Assembly (NCBI GenBank): GCA_016186945.1 | Contig: JACPKR010000035.1 | Coordinates: 1-58,391, forward strand | Origin: Deltaproteobacteria bacterium | Lineage (GTDB): Bacteria > Bdellovibrionota_B > Oligoflexia > Oligoflexales > Bog-1112 | DNA: 58,391 nucleotides | Direction of reading: 5' to 3' | Part shown: positions 5,313-38,204 of the stretch, in pieces | How positions within the stretch are numbered: the first letter of the stretch is position 1 | Layout of the letters: each line of letters begins with the position of its first letter | Notes under the pieces: generated by a model | Told to the model about the DNA's origin: nothing | What the model saw: the letters and a program-made list of their open reading frames with translations, nothing else | Databases searched by the model: none | Translations under genes and position numbers: made by a program

Positions 5313-5503
5313 TAATGCGTAAGCCACTTGGGGGAAAAAGGGAGAGGGGGGTTTGGGGGGGCGAGTGAAGCGTCGCCTCCCCCAGGGGAATTCTTGTTGA
5401 AGGAACCAGCTGCGCAGTTTCCTCCAAACCACCTCCTTGTTGAAGGAACCAGCTGCGCAGTTTCCTCCAAACCACCTCCTTGCCCCAAGTAGCTTACGCA
5501 TTA
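5313..5503. repeat. Repeat A, full-length copy with internal 43-bp tandem duplication
   Basis: Terminal inverted repeats: TAATGCGTAAGCCACTTGGG at the left is mirrored by the segment ending CTTACGCATTA at the right. In between lie the G-rich tract, a GGGGGGGCGAGTGAAGCGTC hairpin half, and two exact tandem copies (5393-5435 and 5436-5478) of the module carrying the hairpin with CAGCTGCGCAG and ACCACCTCC. The 9-mer CTAGTGTAA occurs at both edges (5307-5315 and 5505-5513), a possible target duplication. The rest of the 5255-5555 gap shows no gene. Confidence 0.9.
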
Positions 5504-36753: not shown

Positions 36754-36882
36754 GCCACTTGTGGCAAGGAGGTGGTTTGGAGGAAACTGCGCAGCTGGTT
36801 CCTCCAAGAAATCCCTTGGGGGAGCGACGGTTCCCTCGCCCCCCCAAACCCCCCTCTCCCTATTTGCCTTGCCCCTAGCAAC
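36744..36882. repeat. Repeat A with internal part inverted
   Basis: The terminal TAATGCGTAAGCCACTTGTG is in the usual direction, but the interior runs the other way: GGCAAGGAGGTGGTTTGGAG, then the hairpin CTGCGCAGCTGG, then GACGGTTCCCTCGCCCCCCC and AAACCCCCCTCTCCC. In this orientation the repeat displays AAGGAGGTGG, a perfect Shine-Dalgarno. It lies 100 bp upstream of rplM. Confidence 0.9.
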
Positions 36883-36984: not shown

Positions 36985-37431
36985 ATGAAAACTGCAAGTG
37001 TCAAAGCGTCAGATATTACGAAGCAGTGGGTCGTAGTCGACGCGGCGGGAAAAACCATGGGGCGTCTGGCCTCACAAATTGCCTACGTACTCCGTGGCAA
37101 ACATAAACCTAGCTTTGTGCCTCATCTTGATTGCGGCGATAATGTCATCGTGACAAACGCGAAGGATATCAATCTAACGGGACGAAAGTGGGAACAAAAA
37201 TCCTACTACAGCTACTCGGGCTATATTGGTGGTATCAAAGAAGCATCTGCCGCGCTTGTGCGAGAAAAGAAACCTGAGCGTTTGATCGAGGCCGCTGTGC
37301 AAGGCATGCTTCCCAAAAACAAATTGGGTCGTCAGATCATGTACAACCTGAAAATTTACGCTGACGATAAACATCCTCACGATGCACAAAAACCTTCGCC
37401 CATGAAGCCGCGAACTTTTGAAGGAGAATAG
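36985..37431 (+). CDS. rplM: Ribosomal protein uL13
   Basis: 148 residues. The large-subunit protein is recognisable from VVVDAAGKTMGRLASQIAYV, then LRGKHKPSFVPHLDCGDNVI, SYYSYSGYIGGIKE and AVQGMLPKNKLGRQ. GGAG lies 7 bases before the ATG. It forms the standard rplM-rpsI pair, but the normal short gap is widened to 371 bp by the RNA element that begins right at the TAG stop. Confidence 0.96.
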   Translation: MKTASVKASDITKQWVVVDAAGKTMGRLASQIAYVLRGKHKPSFVPHLDCGDNVIVTNAKDINLTGRKWEQKSYYSYSGYIGGIKEASAALVREKKPERLIEAAVQGMLPKNKLGRQIMYNLKIYADDKHPHDAQKPSPMKPRTFEGE

Positions 37432-37790
37432 TCAACTACCCGCCCCTAAAGGGGCAGGCTTGTAAGGGCCTCACGTTGACCAGACTCAGTTCGCGCAAGC
37501 GAACTACGTTAGGAGCGAATACATAGGTACCTTGGGATGCCGACCCAGTCCCAAGCTCTACGGCAAGTGGTTAAACAGGTGTAAGGGGTTTAGGCTAGTG
37601 CTGCTTGCATACAAACCGCTCCATAACATTGTCGAGGGTAACTTTACCCGCATTAAGCGGAGTAGACGGGAAACCGTCAGGGGGTAACCCCACGGAAAGT
37701 GCTCGCTTCGGTGGGCGCTTTCCTCCCCTCCCTTCGTCTCCGCCTCAAGGCTCGACTCAGGAAGGGGTATCCAGCAGTTAACTAACACGA
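37432..37790 (+). ncRNA. HEARO-like (IscB omega-RNA-type) structured RNA element, no nuclease gene
   Basis: Starts TCAACTACCCGCCCCTAAAG, an IS200/IS605-type end hairpin (GCCCC TAAA GGGGC, 37442-37455). Further paired elements: AGTTCGC-gcaa-GCGAACT (37488-37505), CTTGGGA...TCCCAAG (37531-37555), GGGTA...TACCC (about 37635-37648), GACGG-gaaa-CCGTC (37665-37678), GGGGGTAACCCC (37680-37691) and GGAAAGTGC...GCGCTTTCC (37694-37722). The linear order and the single-stranded segments (such as AGGAGCGAATACATAGG and TTTAGGCTAGTGCTGC) match what I recall of HEARO RNAs found upstream of iscB. No reading frame for IscB or TnpB is present. If functional, the 5' guide would come from the end of rplM. Confidence 0.68.
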
Positions 37791-37802
37791 AAGGTTTTTA
37801 GG

Positions 37803-38204
37803 ATGAACATGGCTCTTAAATATTTACAGTCTGTAGTTGGAAAACGAAAAACCGCTATAGCCCGAGCCTACATAAAAAAAGGTACCGGTAAGATCAGTAT
37901 CAACAACCGTAGCCTTGAATCTTACTATATCCGACCCATCTCACGCATGATGATCATGCAACCCCTTGAGTTAACCGACAACGTTGGGAAATTCGACATC
38001 AATGTCAATGTCCGAGGCGGAGGCCTATCTGGACAGGCAGGCGCTATCAGACATGCCATCTCCCGTGCCCTCTCGCGCATGGATGAAGGACATCATAAAG
38101 TGTTGAAGAAGGCAGGACTTTTGACTAGAGATGCTCGTAAGAAAGAGCGTAAGCTTCCTGGTCAGCCTGGTGCTCGTAAGCGCTACCAGTTCTCCAAACG
38201 TTAA
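37803..38204 (+). CDS. rpsI: Ribosomal protein uS9
   Basis: 133 residues: [20 protein letters not shown] at the N-terminus and the invariant C-terminal [15 protein letters not shown]. Start ATG 37803 follows GAAAGG; a second ATG is two codons later. The gene follows rplM across the inserted RNA element and must rely on read-through or on a promoter within it. Its stop overlaps the convergent gene by 4 bp. Confidence 0.96.

Follow-up and report, generated by a model that had tools for sequence, protein, structure and literature searches.

The genes for ribosomal proteins L13 (rplM; positions 36985–37431, + strand; Pfam PF00572, Ribosomal_L13, E = 4.6e-47) and S9 (rpsI; 37803–38204, +; PF00380, Ribosomal_S9, E = 1.7e-49) are neighbors in the window, which is the whole 58,391-nt stretch of DNA analyzed here, and a structured element lies between them. 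When the whole window was searched with Rfam covariance models, HEARO (RF02033), the omegaRNA of IscB, matched at 37431–37647 (+) with 143.9 bits against a gathering cut-off of 83 (E = 4.3e-30). The match covers the model end to end (1–211 of 211), and RF02033 is the sole Rfam family above threshold across the window. Thus, the scaffold exceeds the curated cut-off over the full model of HEARO/IscB omegaRNA, and the identity that a sequence-only reading had proposed, along with this very check, is clearly borne out.

Three hairpins, CCGCATTAAGCGG, GACGGGAAACCGTC and GGGGGTAACCCC, follow the Rfam model at 37648–37700 (+), as placed by folding and leader comparison. The first and third of them are similar to hairpins found just 5′ of iscB in iscB-bearing relatives. 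RNA of the interval 37432–37830 folds 4.3 sd more stably than its dinucleotide shuffles.

Some other structured RNA, such as a ribosomal-protein leader, a group II intron fragment or an RNase P fragment, could be suspected from weak sub-threshold matches past 37640 (rsmX with 21 bits and isrB with 17 bits) and from a 31-nt similarity to the genome's own apparent RNase P RNA. HEARO, however, stands 60 bits above its cut-off with all others far under theirs, and a non-HEARO structured RNA, already refuted by this covariance-model result, retains next to no probability. Incidentally, the RNase P similarity spans about 31 nt at 37672–37702 (against C65:29005–29037; 88% identity, E = 8.6e-4), and is possibly a chance resemblance. 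Blast against phage records gave no match to the element.

The element extends beyond the Rfam model at its right side, as revealed by other copies in the same genome. Its left end is common to those on contigs C43 and C65, and its right end, at 37761–37802 (+), is common to those on C24 and C25 (80% over 45 nt, E = 3.3e-4). In comparison with the latter two, the right-end sequence runs on to the last base before an ATGA at 37803. The whole inserted element is therefore 372 bp, 37431–37802 (+), slightly longer than the 37432–37790 read from the window alone, although the element does lie there.

When the flanks are joined, GGAGAATA meets ATGAACATGGC, and they align without a gap to the empty rplM-rpsI junction of a same-genus genome, G001. 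Over a longer stretch, the joined flanks ...TTTGAAGGAGAATA and ATGAACATGGCTC... correspond to ...AACGGAGAATAAGGTTCATGGC... at that empty junction. The insertion was thus exact, with neither duplication nor loss of the target. HEARO elements insert 5′ of ATGA or GTGA, and here both the same-genome copies and the G001 empty site set the boundaries at a 5′ end of GTCAAC and an ATGA on the 3′ side. None of the relatives searched has HEARO at rplM-rpsI, and their junctions are short.

Both reading frames remain intact despite the insertion. On the left, the stop codon TAG of rplM (37429–37431) consists of TA from the host and G from the element, so that the element begins exactly in the stop codon, where the initial reading had placed an IS200/IS605-type end. 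The stop codon of rplM before the insertion would, judging from the flanks, have been TAA, with its last A shared with ATGA. On the right, ATGA (37803–37806, +) is the expected target-adjacent motif by the boundary comparison of copies, and its ATG is in frame with the conserved S9 start, which alignment with relatives places 6 nt farther downstream, at 37809. S9 starts with ATGG in the relatives, and this start follows in frame after ATGAAC in this genome.

No nuclease gene accompanies the RNA. Only three open reading frames of at least 40 aa are present within the element (51, 58 and 76 aa), and no similarity to IscB was found in it, including 37648–37802, although an autonomous element carries iscB directly 3′ of its omegaRNA. 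The insert between rplM and rpsI is confirmed to be a HEARO element without iscB, a stand-alone copy as first described. We consider it very probable that this is a non-autonomous element of the IscB (HEARO) class, which has kept its omegaRNA and both ends, lacks iscB, and has been inserted exactly at ATGA between rplM and rpsI. Orphan omegaRNAs as such are already known.

Such an element could instead be a decayed relic, which lost iscB by deletion, is now inert, and is kept because it is harmless in place. This would agree with a single stand-alone copy being assembled, with an internally deleted iscB in a Geoalkalibacter plasmid copy described below, and with a 21-nt left-end remnant elsewhere in the genome, which shows that such elements decay. 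On the other hand, every HEARO helix is intact here, with the score of 143.9 bits being the second highest among Oligoflexia copies, and both element ends are complete. We hold the relic to be a serious possibility, but rather doubtful. The 21-nt remnant, GTCAACTACCCGCCCCTAAAG, lies at L008 1276–1296 (G000:C53) and matches the left end of the element exactly, with nothing else of the element around it, and is probably the relic of another copy.

The rplM-rpsI copy is the only full HEARO copy assembled in the genome. C43 and C65 each carry the left part of a HEARO element at their extreme end, and C24 and C25 likewise have the matching right ends at a terminus. An ETF-family gene lies just inside the end of C43 (etfB) and another just inside the start of C24 (etfA), and the etfB-etfA pair is therefore most likely split by one copy. 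The right end on C25 precedes a radical-SAM activase gene. Both C24 and C25 break inside the same coding sequence, whose last residues before the stop, YCRTVHSADGYSYVI, are similar to the C-termini of IscB, CRIVQRVDGYSYAMA in an Oligoflexus genome (G035) and HSADGYNY in G058. Break points that coincide in this way are typical of a two-copy repeat collapsed in assembly, and the body of iscB has therefore probably been lost in the gaps.

The iscB body is nowhere in the genome's own assembly by Pfam RRXRR and IscB alignment, which gave only a weak HNH-sized match on C15. Thus, the expectation of an IscB elsewhere in the genome is backed only indirectly, by two further copies with an IscB-like C-terminus at right-hand contig ends, but its main body is missing from the assembly. 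From these termini, a cognate IscB would be likely to act in trans. Genes of Y1_Tnp type occur on C40, C52 and C76, none of them linked to HEARO elements.

In IscB systems, the guide is the sequence of about 16 nt located 5′ of the scaffold, and an IscB of Allochromatium uses ATGA as its target motif. Positioned by this biology, the expected guide of the window element would be CTTTTGAAGGAGAATA at 37415–37430 (+), and it contains the native Shine-Dalgarno sequence (SD) of rpsI. That the end of rplM would serve as the guide, an early proposal, follows from the exact 5′ boundary and is strengthened by the 3′ ATGA and the gap-free alignment to the empty site. TnpB omegaRNA elements of IS200/IS605 share RNA-guided transposon maintenance with a target-adjacent motif, but their guide is 3′ of the RNA rather than 5′ as in the window element. 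IsrB, which is related to IscB, prefers NTGA as its target motif (PMC9581776).

We conceive the following course. A transcript running from rplM through the element to rpsI would give rise to an omegaRNA with the rplM 3′ end as its guide. IscB supplied from the other copies in the genome could bind this omegaRNA and cut chromosomes having an empty rplM/ATGA site, and by such cutting the insertion would be copied back and retained. The occupied site would be spared because ATGA no longer adjoins the guide sequence. The element would be tolerated because its first G completes the rplM stop codon and its right end falls just before the rpsI start.

The window element shares with HEARO RNA/IscB omegaRNA (RF02033) the full-length match, the 5′ GTCAAC end, the guide position beyond the left end and the ATGA at the right, but is followed by extra hairpins and a transposon right end instead of a downstream iscB. 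Stand-alone omegaRNAs working with IscB in trans are documented (Altae-Tran 2021, as cited in PMC9581776). Likewise, the window omegaRNA has no nuclease gene with it, and its genome contains related copies of iscB type; what differs is its place between two ribosomal-protein genes, and between SD and start, and that the iscB body is unassembled.

The insertion affects how rpsI can be expressed. Between rplM and rpsI, neither promoter-like nor terminator-like sites were found, so rpsI is presumably transcribed from upstream, through the RNA, which supports the suggestion that S9 is expressed across a structured RNA. What the sequence-only reading missed is that the insertion parts rpsI from its native SD, which has an SD energy of −8.8 kcal/mol and is now left of the element. 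For elements of the ATGA type, sites of this kind are usual. The right terminus of the element, AAAGGTTTTTAGG (37790–37802, +), contains a weak SD-like sequence (AAAGG/AGGA) with an anti-SD energy of −4.1/−4.7 kcal/mol. Because this is no stronger than random, being matched by 27–32% of random 20-mers from the window, restoration of translation by this copy is unproven.

A position within an essential operon, and the exchange of the native SD for a weaker one, would also be expected if the element were a domesticated regulator, its omegaRNA controlling S9 in cis, alone or with IscB, and uncoupling rpsI from rplM. We find this improbable, because the element is in no relative searched and so gives no sign of long conservation, and because sister copies with the same right end precede unrelated genes.

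Insertion of IscB-class elements at start codons was surveyed with 180 HEARO copies in 39 other genomes, in which right ends were placed by homology between copies. Genome searches at the class level and at the phylum level gave the same 58 genomes. ATGA-ending elements are present in Chromatiales, Oligoflexia and others, and Ktedonobacter has elements with other motifs. A clear boundary is seen in 68 Chromatiales copies, and in 44 of these an open reading frame of at least 100 aa starts exactly at the boundary ATGA, compared with 17.7% of 797 control ATGAs, although copies within one genome are related and the survey counts are not independent. Start codons were called mostly from open reading frame length; a handful of the proteins are also supported by Pfam, and two of the sites by annotation. 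Among the genes that follow ATGA-type copies are glyA, rph, surE, sat, glgP and fliL. As an exception, one plasmid copy in A. tepidum lies upstream of trfA and does not end at a start codon.

The left flanks were compared as well. Over 79 sites of the ATGA type, SDs are stronger in the 18 nt adjoining the element's left side than farther upstream (p = 1.9e-7), and this also holds for the iscB-less copies alone (p = 8.5e-7). In the Ktedonobacter control with other target motifs, the shift is smaller (p = 0.018) with no excess of strong SDs, and base composition may thus account for some of the signal in the flanks. Together, the open reading frames at ATGA and the SDs in the left flanks argue that most ATGA-type sites are true starts of translation, at which the native SD stays on the guide side. 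Start codons would be common as sites because an ATG is part of ATGA and because insertions within genes are eliminated, and the bias may come simply from these two factors.

Right ends vary in their SD. In Chromatiales elements with iscB, the right end is TCTCGCGCAAGACTG followed by ATGA, with an SD energy of about −2.7. In 24 iscB-less copies from five genomes, it is TCTCGCGGAGGAACTG followed by ATGA with small variants, and the median SD energy is −9.5. In other Oligoflexia elements, the right-end SD has an energy between −5.6 and −9.8. G099 has eight iscB-less elements with no right-end SD (−2.7), and these still precede open reading frames. Thus, a right-end SD stronger than chance is found in the iscB-less Chromatiales family (−9.5) and several Oligoflexia elements, and not in the window element. 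The frequency of start codons is no higher with SD-bearing elements than with SD-less ones, so the SD is not the cause of the site preference. A portable SD as a general property fails in Chromatiales elements with iscB, in the iscB-less G099 elements and in the window element, and this claim was narrowed. Some lineages appear to carry their own SD, and some relatives with GGAGG at the right end may restore translation.

Two plasmids offer examples at annotated genes. The HEARO element of Geoalkalibacter subterraneus pGSUB1 (L471 1920–2438), whose iscB is internally deleted, has its right end CTGGAGGTATTTTTC (GGAGG) followed by ATGA exactly at an annotated CDS start, and TTAGGAGG on the other side. 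In Allochromatium tepidum pAt1 (L474 1493–1538), a solo remnant of 46 bp, made up of two ends, a hairpin and GGAGGAACTG, is situated between traN and the next annotated CDS start. The TAG of traN is completed by the element's G, as in rplM.

From the survey, we tentatively suggest, with somewhat less than even confidence, that IscB elements of the ATGA type amount to start-codon transposons, which insert between SD and ATG with the native SD in the guide, and which in several lineages have acquired their own SD at the right end. An SD acquired in this manner would let insertion before essential genes be tolerated, and the pAt1 element would have shrunk to a 46-bp cassette of ends, hairpin and GGAGG. 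In the open papers searched, no description was found of start-codon insertion or of a right-end SD for IscB elements.

Also close in form are the iscB-less HEARO elements of Allochromatium and relatives, about 370–400 bp long with omegaRNA only. They are bounded by ATGA and often lie at a housekeeping gene's start codon (rph, surE, sat, glgP, fliL). They differ in having a strong SD, GGAGGAACTG followed by ATGA, and an extra covarying RNA domain, neither of which the window element has.

The locus clearly exemplifies an orphan guide RNA of IscB that is part of a ribosomal-protein transcript, and illustrates how an essential operon can receive such an element with both proteins unbroken. The survey suggests a reason for the persistence of IscB elements: by their target motif they come to lie at start codons and leave the coding sequence undivided, and at the junction some lineages carry a ribosome-binding site. 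This would be a testable connection of host translation with RNA-guided maintenance and with the choice of transposon targets.

Two further observations were made. In the iscB-less HEARO elements of Chromatiales and relatives (alignment A2; L218, L326, L338, L363 and others), the extra covarying domain lies 3′ of the scaffold, has two-sided changes in 6 of its 21 pairs, and is absent from Rfam and from relatives with iscB. Its covariance model found no match in the window or in Oligoflexia stand-alone copies, and a domain shared across phyla is therefore not claimed; a scan of viral contigs for its hairpin motif gave 100 short matches. Separately, a dispersed 29-nt palindromic repeat, GGAGGAAACTGCGCAGCTGGTTCCTCCAA, forms the core of a roughly 110-bp unit with nine copies in the window, at 36779 (+) and near 5397, 5440, 12488, 25964, 30437, 39631, 46005 and 50327 (−), and with more on other contigs.
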